Notes under the pieces: generated by a model
Told to the model about the DNA's origin: nothing
The model's database searches: none
The model's input: the letters and a program-made list of their open reading frames with translations, nothing else
Made by a program: the position numbers and the translations under genes
Assembly: GCA_029778935.1 (NCBI GenBank)
Contig: JAKPBM010000345.1
Span: 1-18,123 of the forward strand
Direction of reading: 5' to 3'
DNA: 18,123 bases
From: Bacillota bacterium
GTDB taxonomy: Bacteria; Bacillota; Clostridia; Oscillospirales; QAMX01
Part shown: positions 104-18,123 of the stretch, one piece after another
Position numbering within the stretch: position 1 is the stretch's first letter
Layout of the letters: each line of letters opens with the position of its first letter

Positions 104-106
104 GTA

Positions 107-127
107 ATGCAACACAAAATGCAACAC
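107..127 (+). repeat. Left pair of direct repeats, probable integrase arm-type sites (P arm)
   Basis: ATGCAACAC occurs at 107-115 and again at 119-127, a 12-bp step. The same 9-mer recurs with the same 12-bp step at 357-377, on the other side of the tRNA-like core. The second copy here is followed by GAACCG and the matching right-hand copy by GACCCG. Paired direct repeats on both sides of a core are the usual arrangement of arm-type binding sites for the N-terminal domain of tyrosine integrases. The repeats are seen directly; the binding role is inferred. Confidence 0.7.
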
Positions 128-165
128 GAACCGCTATTCTTCCATTTCCTCTAAGGAAACAATTA

Positions 166-200
166 TTTCGCCGCAGGTTCAACTCCTGTCACTCGGACCA
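166..200 (+). other. attP core: Attachment core: 3' end of a tRNA gene (T arm, acceptor strand, CCA)
   Basis: The T arm can be read as GCAGG (172-176), loop TTCAACT, then CCTGT. It is followed by the 7-nt acceptor strand CACTCGG, discriminator A and an encoded CCA ending at 200. No matching 5' half (CCGAGTG or similar) lies within about 75 nt upstream, so this is a tRNA 3' fragment, not a gene. Phages that integrate into tRNA genes carry such a fragment so that the gene is restored. The acceptor implies a C1:G72 pair with A73, which fits tRNA-Pro best, but the amino acid identity is inferred. The exact limits of the phage/host identity cannot be seen here. Confidence 0.75.
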
Positions 201-201
201 G

Positions 202-231
202 AATAACCCGCCACTATTGTGGCGGGTTATT
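202..231. terminator. Intrinsic terminator after the tRNA-like core
   Basis: A perfect stem of 13 bp (202-214 with 219-231) closes a 4-nt TATT loop. It has AT-rich outer pairs, a GC-rich centre and a T-rich run after 231. It would stop integrase transcription. After integration it could also replace the host tRNA's own terminator, since it lies 2 bp past the CCA. The hairpin is nearly symmetric and might act in both directions. Confidence 0.8.
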
Positions 232-268
232 TATATTTTTTACTGGATAACGGCAACAATTTAGATCA

Positions 269-318
269 ATAATTTGAAATTCCTATAATTTGAACTTCCA
301 GCATCGCGGAATAATTTG
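269..318 (+). repeat. Three copies of ATAATTTG in the attachment region
   Basis: ATAATTTG occurs at 269-276, 285-292 and 311-318. The first two extend to the 10-mer ATAATTTGAA. They lie between the core and the right arm repeats, where excisionase or host bending proteins (IHF/HU-like) bind in other phages. The stretch is AT-rich, so part of this could be chance. No gene is seen between 104 and 454. Confidence 0.4.
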
Positions 319-356
319 CGTCGAAAAACGACTGTTTTCCAGCCGTTTAGAACGCC

Positions 357-377
357 ATGCAACACGCCATGCAACAC
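357..377 (+). repeat. Right pair of direct repeats, probable integrase arm-type sites (P' arm)
   Basis: ATGCAACAC occurs at 357-365 and 369-377, again exactly 12 bp apart and in the same orientation as the left pair. The outer copy and its flank (369-383) match the left outer copy (119-133) at 14 of 15 positions. Conserved sequence, spacing and orientation on both sides of the core argue for a function, most likely integrase arm binding. Confidence 0.7.
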
Positions 378-420
378 GACCCGTGAAAACATTGAAGCGC
401 AATTTCAACAAAACGAAAAA

Positions 421-443
421 AGCCGAGGCAATATGCCTCGGCT
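421..443 (-). terminator. Intrinsic terminator of the late operon
   Basis: A perfect 10-bp stem (421-430 with 434-443) has an ATA loop. Read on the minus strand it is followed by a run of T (plus-strand A run at 416-420). It begins 11 bp after the endolysin stop codon, so it ends the whole minus-strand structural and lysis transcript before the attachment region. Confidence 0.9.
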
Positions 444-454
444 AAGTTTAGCAA

Positions 455-6490: not shown

Positions 6491-8982
6491 AACGCACCAC
6501 CCGCAATGAGGTTCTTGCCCACCCGGCGGGCCACCTTCTGCTGATTGCGGTAGATGACTTCGCCGTCCAAATACACGTTCCCGCCCGCCCGGATGGCTTC
6601 GAGGATTTCGCGCAGAAGGGCGATCATGGCCGGGTCCGTCCGCTCCTCCCGGAAGATTTCCCGCAGCAGTCCTTCCGGCGTTTCGATGTTGTAGCCCCGT
6701 TTCTGGTCGCCCAAAACGGCCAGAAACTCACGGTTCGGCGGAATGACCGCGCCGGCGGCCAGCCGGGGGATTTTGGGGATGTTAAAGCCGTAGGTGTTTC
6801 CGCCGATGCCGGGCACCCAGTCGGGAATGGTGATTTTAATCTTGTTGATCTGGTCGATCATCCAGTTGATGCCGTCGATGACCCAGTTTATCCCGGCCTT
6901 AATTGCGCTCCACAGTCCCTCGCCGATGACGCTGAACAGGTTTTTCCAGAAATCCAAGGTGAAAATAGGCGCGACATACTGGCGCCACCAGCTCTTGATT
7001 TTCTCCCAGACGTTCTTTATCCAATTGAGGATAGCATCCCAGTTCAGCGCGGTGACTGTAACCAACCCCGCTGCGCCGGCTGCAATAAGCGCGACGCCCA
7101 AAGGTAGCGCAACGCCGGTACAGACAAGAATGATGCCGAGTACCAGCAGTGCCAAGCTTGCAATTGCCACGATTTTGCCGACTGGGCCACGTATAGCATC
7201 AACAATCTTGTCCCAGTTTAGGGCAGTAACCGTTGCAAGCACAGCCGCCCCAGATATGATTAAGGCTATACCTAACGGAATTGCCGCGCCGCTGCATACA
7301 AGAATAAGGCCGAGTACCAGCAGTGCCAAGCTTGCAATTGCCATGATTTCGCCGACTGGGCCGCGTATAGCTTCGACGATCGCTTCCCAATTCAAGGCAA
7401 CAACAGTGGCGAGCGATGCCGCACCGGCCAAAATTAATGCGATGCCAAGAGAAACCGAAACGCCGCTAAGTGCAAGTATCAAACCAATTGCCAATAAGGC
7501 CAGGCCAACGATTCCCATAATCTCACCAATCGGGCCTTGAATAAGTCCAACAACCTTCTCCCAATCTGTTGCTACCACAGATGCAATCATCGCGGCCCCA
7601 ACAGCCATAAGCGCGATGCCCAACGGTATTGCAACGCCGCTAAATGCGAGCACCATACCAATCACCAGCGCATAGTAGCCTGCCTCGGCAAAAACATCTC
7701 CGAGTGGGCCTTTGAGAAGTGCTGAAATCGTCTCCCAGTTAGCGGCCACAACACTTGCCAGTCCTGCGGCACCAATTATCATGAGTCCGATGCCAAGCCC
7801 GATTGCGACACCGGAAAACGCCAATACCATACCTACCACTAGTAGGAAGGCACTTGTTAAGGAAAATATCGATCCAATTTGCCCTTGGAGTGTATTGGCA
7901 ATCAAATCCCAGTTCTCGTTAATTGAATAGGCCAACCCCGCAGCACCAAGCGCAATCAATCCGAGGCCAAGCGGGATATTTGAACCTGTAAATACAAGAA
8001 TAACACCAAGCGCCAGAAGCGCCGCACTTACGTATGTTGTTATATCGTCCAACCTTTTCTTGTATTCCTCCGCATCGAACTGATCCATAGCGCCGAAGTC
8101 CGGTTCTATGGTGGTCATATCTGTGGAGGTATCCTCGCTTAATACATTCAGCTCGTCGAAAGCCGCCAGCTGTGCACCCGCTTTTTCCGCGGCATCCCCC
8201 GTTTTTTCAAACGCTTTGGTCTGTTCATAAAGCGCCTCGGCTGCTTTTCTGGACTGTGAATAGGTTGTGCCAAACAAAAATGAAACAACCCTTGCAAGCT
8301 GCGTCACAAAACCAGACAAGGCGTTGACAAATTGTATAAACGTAGGTACAATCACGTTGACAAGGGGTTGCGCCAGCGTCAAAAGCGACGCTTTTAGCTG
8401 CGCGATGCTCTTACGGGCTTGTTCGTTGCTTTTGATTACCTTGCCCATCCAGTCGAAAATCGACCGTAGCGCACGGCCAAGCGTGTAGAACACCGCGACA
8501 CGGAAAAGCATGTTTTTCAGCCGATTGGTATACTTTGTCATATAGGCATTAGCCTTATTGATGGCCTTTCCCATAGCCAATGTAAATCCCTTTGACTGTG
8601 CCAGTCTCTGGGAAATGACGCCGGCCTTTTCCTTGTTCCGCTCCAACTCATAGGTGGCATTTTGGATGGCCATGTCATACCGCTCGACGCGGGCTTGTAC
8701 GGCATCCCACTGCCTTTGCAGCTGGTTTACTTCCGCCTGTTGCGCTTTAATTTGAGACCGGAAAAAGAACTCCTTACCGCTTTCCATATAGGCAAGTCGC
8801 GCTTTGGCCTCGTCTAGTCTGGCGGCAAGTACGGCCGATTCTTGGGCCAGCGCAGCACGTTCGGCTTGTTTCTGCCGGATTCGATCCTCGATTGATTCGA
8901 TTTTCTTCGCCACGCTGTTTAGCTGTCTTTCCAGCTGTTTATTATCAAGTGCGGTCTTAAAGGTAATGGTGCCGTCGCTCAT
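6487..8982 (-). CDS. Tail tape measure protein with tandem 58-residue hydrophobic repeats
   Basis: This 831-aa protein sets tail length and is ejected ahead of the DNA. Residues about 8-130 form a long coiled coil rich in Q, E, K, R and A. A basic segment follows (about 150-170), then a hydrophobic stretch (about 205-245). Residues about 323-655 contain six head-to-tail copies of a 58-residue unit, each with a glycine-rich hydrophobic core (L..G.....G..IPLGIAL...GAA), an invariant [ND]W and a GP[ILV]G turn. A Trp-rich amphipathic part (about 655-720) and a C-terminal region typical of these proteins (LAAGAVIPPNREFLAVLGDQ) complete it. The start has GAGGTGA at 5-6 nt. There is no peptidase domain. 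The next gene downstream overlaps by ATGA; upstream, it is separated from the chaperone genes by the opposite-strand lipoprotein. Confidence 0.9.
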   Translation of the reverse strand: MSDGTITFKTALDNKQLERQLNSVAKKIESIEDRIRQKQAERAALAQESAVLAARLDEAKARLAYMESGKEFFFRSQIKAQQAEVNQLQRQWDAVQARVERYDMAIQNATYELERNKEKAGVISQRLAQSKGFTLAMGKAINKANAYMTKYTNRLKNMLFRVAVFYTLGRALRSIFDWMGKVIKSNEQARKSIAQLKASLLTLAQPLVNVIVPTFIQFVNALSGFVTQLARVVSFLFGTTYSQSRKAAEALYEQTKAFEKTGDAAEKAGAQLAAFDELNVLSEDTSTDMTTIEPDFGAMDQFDAEEYKKRLDDITTYVSAALLALGVILVFTGSNIPLGLGLIALGAAGLAYSINENWDLIANTLQGQIGSIFSLTSAFLLVVGMVLAFSGVAIGLGIGLMIIGAAGLASVVAANWETISALLKGPLGDVFAEAGYYALVIGMVLAFSGVAIPLGIALMAVGAAMIASVVATDWEKVVGLIQGPIGEIMGIVGLALLAIGLILALSGVSVSLGIALILAGAASLATVVALNWEAIVEAIRGPVGEIMAIASLALLVLGLILVCSGAAIPLGIALIISGAAVLATVTALNWDKIVDAIRGPVGKIVAIASLALLVLGIILVCTGVALPLGVALIAAGAAGLVTVTALNWDAILNWIKNVWEKIKSWWRQYVAPIFTLDFWKNLFSVIGEGLWSAIKAGINWVIDGINWMIDQINKIKITIPDWVPGIGGNTYGFNIPKIPRLAAGAVIPPNREFLAVLGDQKRGYNIETPEGLLREIFREERTDPAMIALLREILEAIRAGGNVYLDGEVIYRNQQKVARRVGKNLIAGGAL
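7020..8015 (-). repeat. Tandem 174-bp coding repeat inside the tape measure gene
   Basis: Six units of about 58 codons (174 bp) lie head to tail, the last one partial. The protein pattern is conserved in all units. At DNA level the two downstream units are closest: 7135-7169 and 7309-7343 are identical over 35 bp at exactly 174-bp spacing, and the next 30 bp differ at only a few sites. The older units have diverged mostly at the DNA level. Confidence 0.9.
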
Positions 8983-12883: not shown

Positions 12884-13762
12884 TTACTTTGTGGCCGAAT
12901 GGACGTATACGCCGGCGACTTTGTTCTCGTAGACGAAGCAATCGTGGTAGAGCCTGAACTGGAACTTCCATGCGTCCTTGTCCTGGTTGGTGTCGGGGTC
13001 GAAAATCTTCGGCAGGGCGAACTTCTGAACCTGCAGCACGGCGGACGGATGAACAATCATGAAGTTGATGCTTTTCGCATCCTCCGCTTTGGTGTAGCCC
13101 CAGTTGCTGGTGCCATCATTGAGCGTAATGGCGGTGTAGAACCGGGACTTCGGCACATAGACGATTGGCATGTTGTTGTAGCCCGCCAAAACCGTATTGA
13201 CGGTGCTGTCGCTGCCCCACTGCCGCGCAAGTGCGCTGTTGATGATGGGCTTCAGGTCGCTGTTGATGAACAGCCGCCGTCCCTCCATCGGCACTTCGTC
13301 CTCGTCCATCTTTCTTACAGCTTCGTCGATGGCCGCGAGGATGGTGTCCTTGTCGAGGTCGGCGGGGTCGGCTTTGGAAACACCAGACGTGCCGGCGTAT
13401 CTGGCGAAGCGATATGCGTCAAGTTCCGGCACGACGTGCTCCCGCATGAAGTTGCCGACGACGGTGCCGAATACCATGCCGAGGGTTTCCTCGTTGTCCA
13501 TCCGGTCGACGGAGAACTCCTTGCCCCGCTCCTCGGTGAGCCTGAGGGTTTCCCAGGTGGCCGTCACGTCGCCTTTGGGGTAGCCGTTTTCCCGGCTGTA
13601 ATCGCCCATGCCAGTAGTGGAGACTTTGAGCACCTTCACTTCGTTGACGCCGGAGAAGTCCACCTGCGTGGCAGCGTCCAGACTTTGGGTCAGCGACGCC
13701 TGCTTATAAACGGCGTCGATAATAGGTAAAAACCTTTTGGCGTATTCAATGCTGTTTGCCAT
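12884..13762 (-). CDS. Major capsid protein (HK97-fold)
   Basis: This 292-aa protein follows the scaffold gene and has the content expected of a capsid subunit. An N-terminal helix (SIEYAKRFLPIIDAVYKQAS) is followed by a beta stretch with VKVLKVSTTGMGDYSRENG (E-loop region), RMDNEETLGMVFGTVVGNFM (spine helix region), EGRRLFINSDLKPIINS and a C-terminal part with HPSAVLQVQKFALPKIFDPD. This matches the coat proteins of A118-like and related siphoviruses. No N-terminal delta domain is present, since the scaffold is a separate gene. AAAGGAG precedes the ATG by 8-9 bases. Confidence 0.85.
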   Translation of the reverse strand: MANSIEYAKRFLPIIDAVYKQASLTQSLDAATQVDFSGVNEVKVLKVSTTGMGDYSRENGYPKGDVTATWETLRLTEERGKEFSVDRMDNEETLGMVFGTVVGNFMREHVVPELDAYRFARYAGTSGVSKADPADLDKDTILAAIDEAVRKMDEDEVPMEGRRLFINSDLKPIINSALARQWGSDSTVNTVLAGYNNMPIVYVPKSRFYTAITLNDGTSNWGYTKAEDAKSINFMIVHPSAVLQVQKFALPKIFDPDTNQDKDAWKFQFRLYHDCFVYENKVAGVYVHSATK

Positions 13763-13765
13763 TTC

Positions 13766-14335
13766 TTACTGCTCCTTTCCGTTGGTTGTGTTATTGGGGT
13801 TGCGCGTGATTCCCGCCGCGCTGGCCGCGGCCGACAGGAACTTGTCCAGGCTGCCGCTTTCCAGCGGGTTGCCGTGGCCCAGACCGCTGTTTAGCGTCGG
13901 ACCGGGCCTTGTGTCCTCGAACAAGTAGGGTTCGTTCTTTTTGAGTTCGGTGAGCTGTTCGTCTAGCCCGAGCAGTTTTTCGCCGTCCAGTCTAATCTGC
14001 TCCATGTTGAGCAGGGCCTTGACGGCTTTCGTGTTTTTGGCCCTTGCCGACATCAAAGCGGTTTCCATCGCACTCTCCAGCTTCAGTCTTCCTAGGTCTT
14101 CGTTGTATTTCTTCTCCCAGGCGGCCACTTCGTCCTTGAGCTTCTGGACATCCACGCCGTCGTACTTTCGGACGGTGTCCTGCAGTTGCTGGATGGTCTG
14201 CTGGGCGGTAGCCAGCTCTATTTCTTTGTTTTTCATTTCGGTTTTGTGGTTTTCGACGCTCTTGCCGTGCTCCACCATGATTTTGTCTATCACGTCGTCG
14301 GCAAGGCCCAGTTCTTTGAGAAATTCGCGTTTCAT
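13766..14335 (-). CDS. Capsid scaffold (Gp20-type minor structural protein)
   Basis: This 189-aa protein is a helical, highly charged scaffold. It opens MKREFLKELGLADDVIDKIM, has a long coiled coil (about residues 25-90 with repeated K, E and Q heptads), then LMSARAKNTKAVKALLNME and LDEQLTELKKNEPYLFE, and ends in a flexible Gly/Pro/Asn-rich tail. This is the pattern of the phage Gp20 family, which guides capsid assembly and then leaves the head. AAGGGGAAG precedes the ATG. It sits directly before the capsid gene, as usual. Confidence 0.9.
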   Translation of the reverse strand: MKREFLKELGLADDVIDKIMVEHGKSVENHKTEMKNKEIELATAQQTIQQLQDTVRKYDGVDVQKLKDEVAAWEKKYNEDLGRLKLESAMETALMSARAKNTKAVKALLNMEQIRLDGEKLLGLDEQLTELKKNEPYLFEDTRPGPTLNSGLGHGNPLESGSLDKFLSAAASAAGITRNPNNTTNGKEQ

Positions 14336-17061: not shown

Positions 17062-18123
17062 TTAGTGCCCATTCCTCTGCGCCATCCGGCCGATCATCTT
17101 CTTGAAGGGCAGCCAGGAATACTGATCGGCGTTGATGACGTGGTCGTTTCTGTCTTCCGGCTCGTCCTTGTCCTCTTTCCAGCTGTAGGTGTTCATCTCC
17201 CGGACCAGTTCCCTGCACGTGTCCACGACGAGATAGTCGCCGTGGGCCATCCAGCCTGCCTGCAGGTTAATGCGGTCGATAATGTTCGTCTGTTTCCAGG
17301 AACCCTGAAATACATACGGCACGCCGTGAGCCCGCTTGTATTTCTGGCATTCCAGAATCGTGCCCTGGTCGGCGCTGTCGATGAACACGTTCCGGCCAAA
17401 GCCCCACTCCCCTCTACACCGTTCCAGAAAGTCCACCAAAAGCGGCGGGATGTCCGACGGTGTGAGCGGTTTCGGCAGGTCGCGATTGTTGTACACCCGT
17501 TCCGCAAGCGTGATTTTCTTCCGGCAGGCAGTGATGCCGGAAAAAACGAAGGCGAATGTGTCGTCCGACTGCCGGCTATAGGACGTGTCCACGCCGCAGG
17601 AGTAGAGTAGGTAGGTGAAATCTTTGGCTTTAGCGGGCGTGATAACATTTTCCGCGCGCAGGTCGAACACCAATCCAGTCGACCGGCCACGTAAGCCCTG
17701 GATTTTGTTTTTATAGAGCTTTGTCCCCGGCGGAACCGTGGCGATGATTTGCGCCTTTTTCTCTGGCGTAAGCGCCGGATTATCGTCAAAAGTAAAGAAC
17801 CAATGCACCCATCCGGGCTTTGGCTCTTTACAAAGCATCTGATTCAGCTCTTCCGGCGCGTCGTGGGCGTACTCCGGCAGGGGCCGGCTGTGATTGATGT
17901 ACTCGTCGTAGATAGGCAGGCTCGGGTCGTCCGGGTTGAGCGTCGCTATAAGATAATCGCACCGCATCGACGCCTCACGCACGTAGTCCATGTCGGCGAT
18001 GTTTATCTCGTCGATGTACAGGCACCCATACTGTCCGCCCAGCGCCTTTTTCCATCGGGCCTTGTTGTCGTAGCCCAGCACATAGATGATTTTATCCCGG
18101 AAGGCGATGTGGGGCAGGCTGTG
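17062..18123 (-). CDS. terL: Terminase large subunit, C-terminal two thirds (partial)
   Basis: The gene runs off the right edge, and 353 codons are visible. It is the ATP-driven motor and nuclease that packages DNA into the head. CLYIDEI (D38-E39 of the visible part) is the Walker B element with the catalytic Glu. The coupling motif may be LIATLNPDDP just after. The RNase H-like nuclease domain shows its acidic residues in order: CGVDTSYSRQSDDT (about 177-190), VFIDSADQG (about 244-252), and EDRNDHVINADQYSW (about 323-337) near the C-terminus. The layout resembles the SPP1/A118 group. Walker A is outside the window. The operon's promoter and small terminase subunit must lie further right. Confidence 0.9.
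   Translation of the reverse strand, partial: HSLPHIAFRDKIIYVLGYDNKARWKKALGGQYGCLYIDEINIADMDYVREASMRCDYLIATLNPDDPSLPIYDEYINHSRPLPEYAHDAPEELNQMLCKEPKPGWVHWFFTFDDNPALTPEKKAQIIATVPPGTKLYKNKIQGLRGRSTGLVFDLRAENVITPAKAKDFTYLLYSCGVDTSYSRQSDDTFAFVFSGITACRKKITLAERVYNNRDLPKPLTPSDIPPLLVDFLERCRGEWGFGRNVFIDSADQGTILECQKYKRAHGVPYVFQGSWKQTNIIDRINLQAGWMAHGDYLVVDTCRELVREMNTYSWKEDKDEPEDRNDHVINADQYSWLPFKKMIGRMAQRNGH

Follow-up and report, generated by a model that had tools for sequence, protein, structure and literature searches.

A probable complete attP with paired 12-bp arm repeats around a tRNA-Pro T-loop, and the spacing of arms and core among its relatives

Paired arm sites, and arm words that vary with the integrase N terminus, have already been described in mycobacteriophages and Oenococcus oeni (PMC3203893, PMC3706429, PMC10865867, PMC8074189; here and below, statements on cited papers refer to the portions of each text that were available). 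In mycobacteriophages of clusters J and K, the core lies at a tRNA or tmRNA gene and is flanked by pairs of putative arm-type sites (PMC3706429, PMC3203893). The arm pairs of cluster J are direct repeats downstream of the integrase gene, as at the locus described here, but the cluster J arm word (TGCATACg/tPuPy) is unlike the word found here, ATGCAACAC, and the hosts of clusters J and K also differ. Cluster K1 shares with the present locus a stem-loop between core and arm, and with the relatives of this locus arm words that vary with N-terminal integrase residues (17 and 19 in K1), whereas its pairs are inverted and those described here are direct (PMC3706429, PMC3203893). Neither a comb of preferred spacings nor a 12-bp unit is described for clusters J and K in the available portions of these two papers. 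The attP core of Ms6 matches the T-loop of tRNA-Ala, the seven bases of which are the likely exchange site, and small changes in the core redirect integration to another T-loop (PMC1762012); the present core likewise corresponds to a tRNA T-loop, but of another tRNA and in another host. The IntF/IntB prophages of Oenococcus oeni have cores flanked by short direct repeats, regarded as putative arm sites and specific to the integrase N terminus, but the arrangement there consists of six 10-bp copies of the word ATTTGCACAA, two on the left and four on the right (PMC8074189). Classes of arm-domain integrases are set out in PMC8138268, where the arm domain at the N terminus of the IntTn916 subgroup consists of three strands plus a helix, and the catalytic domain carries a beta-stranded insertion between its strands 2 and 3. 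The available portions of PMC6109161 and PMC8637289 added nothing on arms.

Layout of the site and its integrase

The stretch analysed (hereafter, the window) comprises all 18,123 bases of contig C25. Its main features are as follows.

1–103, + strand: 3′ end of the integrase gene (stop codon 101–103; full gene at 8804–9874 of contig C35, PF00589)
107–127, + strand: putative P arm pair formed by two copies of ATGCAACAC with a 12-bp step, immediately 3′ of the integrase stop
170–200, + strand: attP core, 31 bp, corresponding to the 3′ end of tRNA-Pro(GGG) including CCA
178–184, + strand: T-loop TTCAACT between the T-stem halves, the proposed strand-exchange region
202–231, + strand: 13-bp hairpin followed by a T-rich stretch, terminator-like, starting two bases past CCA
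269–299, + strand: ATAATTTGAA(A/C)TTCC in two copies (15-bp repeat, 16-bp step), located between core and P′
357–377, + strand: putative P′ arm pair, again two copies of ATGCAACAC with a 12-bp step, with a single counterpart pair in contig C320
421–443, − strand: hairpin with a minus-strand T run, resembling a terminator of the leftward lysis genes
455–1720, − strand: lysin-like gene with an NAGPA phosphodiester glycosidase domain (Pfam)
1723–2028, − strand: holin (Phage_holin_5_2, Pfam)
17062–18123, − strand: large terminase-like gene, named by inspection, running on into contig C311

An exact scan of both strands of the 18,123-base window located ATGCAACAC at 107–115, 119–127, 357–365 and 369–377, all on the + strand, with no further exact copy on either strand. 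This agrees with the sequence-only reading, which had given four copies in one orientation and an exact 12-bp step within both pairs. That reading had also called the arm pairs mirrored, which was rejected: all four copies are direct, and the pairs start at unequal distances from the T-loop centre, 74 bp before it (P) and 176 bp after it (P′). With one mismatch allowed, ATGCAACAC is common in the window (7 matches vs. 4.5 expected, with at least 7 in 30 of 200 shuffles). None of 300 first-order Markov simulations of the window contained one 9-mer in two 12-step pairs, and exact 12-step pairs of any word averaged 0.09 per simulated window. The rarity belongs to the arrangement of ATGCAACAC, not to the word alone.

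The core matched bases 48–78 of a relative's tRNA-Pro(GGG) gene at 31 of 31 positions, with the T-arm at 173–189, in line with the earlier proposal that the pairs flank a tRNA 3′-end core. ARAGORN called no whole tRNA in the window. The last 25 bases of the core recurred exactly in 37 stretches of the species-genome collection and, counting tRNA-Pro calls only, nearly all tRNAs called by ARAGORN at those loci were GGG. Whether a host tRNA gene shares the core had been named as a point to check; the 31 bp are identical to tRNA-Pro(GGG) 3′ ends of other genomes, and no intact tRNA-Pro(GGG) gene, attL or attR was found in the bin (465 contigs, 85.8% complete). One near match (G001:C226) was rejected as a tRNA-like gene beside metabolic-looking genes, and the 1,700 bases read there contained no ATGCAACAC pair. 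Upon integration, the hairpin and its T-rich tail (202–237) would stand 3′ of the rebuilt tRNA-Pro gene, so the phage may supply a terminator besides the tRNA end. For the repeats at 269–299, our guess is a bending or Xis (excisionase) site; between core and P′ of the relatives, no conserved motif like them was found, apart from weak A/T positions.

Regarding the flanking genes, the integrase had been placed on the left and the lysis genes on the right. The lysin-like and holin genes do lie on the right, but on the left the window holds the last integrase codons only, the whole gene being on C35. The protein encoded at 455–1720 carries the NAGPA domain C-terminally and an NlpC/P60 match below the cut-off N-terminally, which is an unusual combination.

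The integrase matched PF00589 with 65.9 bits (cut-off 27.1), and Pfam returned no match to an arm domain. In the model of its N terminus, a two-residue strand (14–15) and strands at 21–29 and 35–42 are followed by a helix (45–68); residues 15 and 26 of the numbering used below (24 and 35 in the model) lie within strands 21–29 and 35–42. By fold, the nearest solved structures were Tn1549 Int and lambda Int. Lambda Int is an arm-domain tyrosine integrase whose arm sites flank the core, as proposed here for the integrase of the window, and lambda integration depends on helical phase. The lambda arm word differs from ATGCAACAC, and lambda is not known to use a tRNA T-loop. Tn1549 Int (6emy and related) was the best fold match, covering the core-binding and catalytic domains (TM 0.62–0.65 by query length). 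It is, unlike the present protein, the integrase of a conjugative transposon, with 17–18% identity, and its solved chain (aa 82–397) is without the arm domain.

A ring of three contigs

The window, C311 and C35 all fall in the same bin. The first 201 bases of the window are identical to the last 201 of C35, its last 201 bases correspond to one end of C311 in reverse, and the first 201 bases of C35 recur at the opposite end of C311; among six overlap lengths tried, 201 was the only one exact at each junction. By arithmetic, the closed ring C25–C311–C35 measures 34,704 bp. By inspection, the terminase frame and a primase-like frame run unbroken across two of the junctions, and the third junction is that of integrase, arm and core. 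The earlier suggestion that the contig may be a circular phage genome holds for this three-contig ring, but not for the window itself, which makes up 18.1 of the 34.7 kb.

Ten proteins were scanned against Pfam (8 from C35 and 2 from the window). Those of C35 contained integrase, RES, DNA polymerase A, DUF2800, helix-turn-helix, IrrE-like and DUF898 domains, one protein being without a match, and C311 carries primase-like, helicase-like and terminase genes, named by inspection. Host genes beside the contig, which the sequence-only reading had named as a point to check, were not seen in the lists of reading frames for these contigs, including the 10 scanned proteins. The RES-domain protein (C35 499–1428) and the DUF898 membrane protein (C35 8309–8692) are possible cargo, their genes lying near the replication and lysogeny regions of the ring.

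Two exact pairs stand on either side of one core, and 45 relatives have the same layout, which supports the interpretation of the site as a complete attP. We consider it very probable that this is the intact attP of a temperate phage of ~34.7 kb, assembled as a circle (excised, packaged or concatemeric), with an arm-binding integrase, exchange in the T-loop and arms at whole helical turns. This explanation draws directly on the two arm pairs with their core, on the ring of overlaps and on the spacing in relatives.

Judged from the overlaps, the ring could be a free circle, a packaged concatemer or a tandem prophage. An attP junction produced by two tandem chromosomal copies of the prophage, instead of a free or packaged circle, seems improbable to us. 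Such an array would give an identical ring of overlaps and an identical junction, and a related prophage remnant (C320) is present in the same bin; on the other hand, the phage would have had to integrate twice or be duplicated, and the bin yielded no host sequence flanking it, a point that carries little weight because the bin is incomplete. The assembly forks one base past the tRNA end, which suggests that the segment from integrase through P to core also runs into host DNA in some copies, and an integrated form may thus coexist with the circular one.

The three contigs might also have been joined by a repeat common to different phages or prophages, in which case both the ring and the two-armed site would be assembly artefacts. 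The contig breaks imply a fork at every junction, and C320 again provides a related remnant within the bin. Two junctions, however, cross continuous reading frames, both arm pairs and the core lie within a single contig and not over a junction, and the two-arm layout recurs at 45 other loci. We therefore regard an artefact as very unlikely, and the intact attP of a circularly assembled phage as the preferred reading.

Spacing of arms and core in relatives

Two-pair loci were defined by a second pair with at most 3 mismatches, in the same orientation and more than 100 bp away. The 45 loci retrieved and the window gave 46 attPs, which include near-copies and form 32 clusters at 60% integrase identity. 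Every 17-mer between the pairs was scored as a T-arm, excluding the outermost 40 bases. The best T-arm lay 64–66 or 73–77 bp past the first pair in all 46 attPs, as compared with 0–9 of 46 in ten shuffles. A core centred on the T-arm was the element common to all 46, 9 of these cores being weak by the T-arm score. The distances from core to second pair were 122, 130–134, 140–144, 155 and 165 bp (176 in the window), and the pair-to-pair totals were 194–199, 205–210, 215–219 and 229 bp (250 in the window), about one helical turn apart.

Rayleigh tests at 10.5 bp over the 32 clusters yielded R values of 0.85, 0.69 and 0.67 for the left, right and total distances, and the right-hand value was reached by none of 20,000 jittered sets, although these figures are not exact probabilities because the rows are still related. 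The best-fit periods were 10.9, 11.2 and 10.8 bp, respectively (about 10.7–11.2), vs. the 10.5 bp used. The window has the longest right distance, which departs from the mean phase by ~2 bp. The integrase tree requires 7 changes of the left distance class, at least 5 of which are imposed by supported branches, and 14 of the right class, so the lengths have changed repeatedly without loss of the phase. Among the clusters, the tRNA direction was divided 21 vs. 11 and the integrase direction 27 vs. 5. The comparison with relatives suggests that the P and P′ arms lie whole helix turns from the crossover.

The sequence-only reading had expected one arm pair at each end of an integrated prophage, and C320 offers an example, being a shortened relative of the phage with one ATGCAACAC pair and a whole tRNA-Pro(CGG). 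Between positions 1148 and 2404, C320 contains, in this order, a gene resembling that at 13766–14335 of the window, the start of one resembling 12884–13762, a break, the arm pair and the tRNA; the distance from T-loop centre to pair is 174 bp, vs. 176 in the window. By eye, the coat-like gene of C320 ends after ~30 codons and runs into tail-protein-like sequence.

A scan for prophage ends, covering 220 pairs at 146 loci and whole tRNAs within 330 bp, found a whole tRNA nearby at 21 places, and the distance fitted at 19 of them (the misfits were L439 and L080). Twelve of the 19 were on the P′ side, at 131–152 and 174 bp with the tRNA pointing towards the arm, and seven were on the P side, at 74–75 bp with the tRNA pointing the opposite way. 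The tRNAs at the fitting places were those for Pro, Leu, Ser, Ala, Gln and Gly. L111 and L184 also gave a second register, offset by 12 bp, and L186 had a further tRNA at 272. On one side of L111, L184 and L130, three or more arm words follow one another at 12-bp steps, or additional pairs occur.

From these patterns, we infer that the integrase binds the arms, that the crossover lies in the T-loop and that the DNA is looped. Through its N-terminal beta-sheet domain, the tyrosine integrase would bind the tandem 12-bp units of both arms, and strands would be exchanged in the tRNA-Pro(GGG) T-loop common to core and host, as the symmetry of the T-stem and the analogy with Ms6 suggest (PMC1762012). 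Because looping would need the arms to keep to a fixed face of the helix, P and P′ would be placed at whole-turn steps from the crossover. Integration would leave one pair per prophage end, with the complete tRNA on the P′ side.

Arm words, integrase residues and spread

Relatives found by protein comprised 30 genome loci and 80 viral loci, 110 in all; near-copies, the integrase of the window itself and some contigs already encountered are among them. Exact 9-mer repeats within 80 bp of the integrase stop had a step of 12 at 54 of the 110 loci (44 of 80 viral and 10 of 30 genomic), while each other step from 9 to 30 was found at no more than 4; steps of 10, 11 and 13 bp are also present among the relatives. 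The remaining 56 were without an exact 12-step 9-mer, some of them ending within 3 bp of the stop. The words at the 12-bp step include ATGCAACAC, ATATCACAC, ACATGACAC, ATGCTAAC, ATGCACACG and TGCACCCG, and at these 54 loci the step is kept while the arm word changes.

Over the whole integrase, the column most informative of the word family (three families) was residue 26, counted from MPKAKRL. Arginine occupied it in 90 of 92 ungapped distinct ATGCAACAC rows (8 more were gapped), but in none of the 8 ATATCACAC rows (K in 6, A in 1 and N in 1) and neither of the 2 ACATGACAC rows, both of these comparison groups being small. Arg26 lies inside one of the two peptide scan patterns, and that pattern consequently favours Arg rows; among viral rows with the other pattern, Arg26 was present in 40 of 40 ATGCAACAC, 0 of 6 ATATCACAC and 0 of 4 ACATGACAC rows. 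The motif-chosen rows had Arg26 in 72 of 74 ungapped cases (8 more gapped), and the five labelled genome rows in 3 of 3 with ATGCAACAC vs. 0 of 2 others. Residue 15 was Arg in the ACATGACAC rows, and no other row counted had Arg there. On a quick tree built without the first 60 columns, in which long branches are present, the word families need 8 changes, so the link between word and residue is not one ancestral event. As for further loci of the ATATCACAC and CATGACAC word groups, 391 genomes of the class gave too few, with 1 match per pattern. Arg26 appears to accompany the G of ATG in the arm word, and we propose contacts between Arg and guanine as the simplest hypothesis for the covariation.

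The exact ATGCAACAC pair with 3 bases between its copies occurred in at least 120 IMG/VR stretches, vs. 3 for ATGCAACAC read backwards and 16 for one extra base between the copies; at least 4 of these 16 lay on contigs whose integrase has this 13-bp-step pair at its 3′ end. Among the 120 stretches listed, of at least 120, 90 contained a recombinase frame, mostly with the pair at the integrase 3′ end, and 30 had no recombinase in the fetched DNA. The exact pair lay between −150 and +600 from the stop in 88 integrases (E ≤ 1e-30). A TGCAACAC pair at a 12-bp step was found in 16 of 391 genomes of the class, one of which had seven overlapping matches in succession. A single 30-base query containing the window's spacer returned 33 records from the phage collection, of which two were opened and MT835973.1 was judged real. 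This unannotated human faecal phage has the closest integrase in the collection (42.9% identity), and it carries the same arm pair as the window at the integrase 3′ end (20 of 20 matched bases). Enterococcus phage EFRM31 was rejected as a relative, with no annotated integrase in the 5 kb surrounding its near-match.

The P pair stands in the same position relative to the integrase as in the relatives, and the first pair begins inside the integrase coding sequence at 32 of the 45 two-pair loci. This overlap would suit another role of the repeats, such as regulator binding at the integrase end, or their origin as a by-product of a conserved peptide tail. The tail over the pair, however, uses each of the three frames and in one case the reverse direction (as MQHxMQH, CNTKCNT, NATRNATR or VLHxVLH), so the DNA and not the peptide is kept; in addition, the pairs flank the T-arm on both sides at a fixed phase, and the word changes together with residue 26. 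We give such other roles the smallest chance of all the alternatives considered. The sequence comparisons strongly support the repeats as putative arm sites.

With some reserve, we favour a large, mostly uncultivated clade of integrases with whole-turn 12-bp arm units and a code in which Arg26 would pair with G3 of ATGCAACAC and Arg15 with G5 of ACATGACAC, the arm pair often lying in the last integrase codons. This reading covers T-loops in either tRNA orientation and many tRNA species, and the N-terminal beta-sheet would read the word. Title and abstract searches, covering few subscription journals, gave no report of ATGCAACAC as an integrase site among the matches listed; within the same kind of search, the matches listed likewise held no integrase arm-site report for TGCAACAC together with attP, and none on a natural spacing comb or a residue-26 correlate. 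Arm pairs, T-loop integration and changing arm words are already known, and the spacing comb and the residue-26 correlate appear new relative to the literature searched.

Overall, the attP sites of uncultivated phages are hard to recognise because arm sites are short and variable. If the rule is true, a 12-bp-step repeat at the integrase stop and a whole-turn distance to a T-loop would give the attP, the prophage ends and the target tRNA from sequence. With the natural spacing comb, the looping geometry of lambda-like integration complexes could be tested by comparison, while the covariation of residues 26 and 15 with the arm word would provide a concrete arm-recognition code to test.
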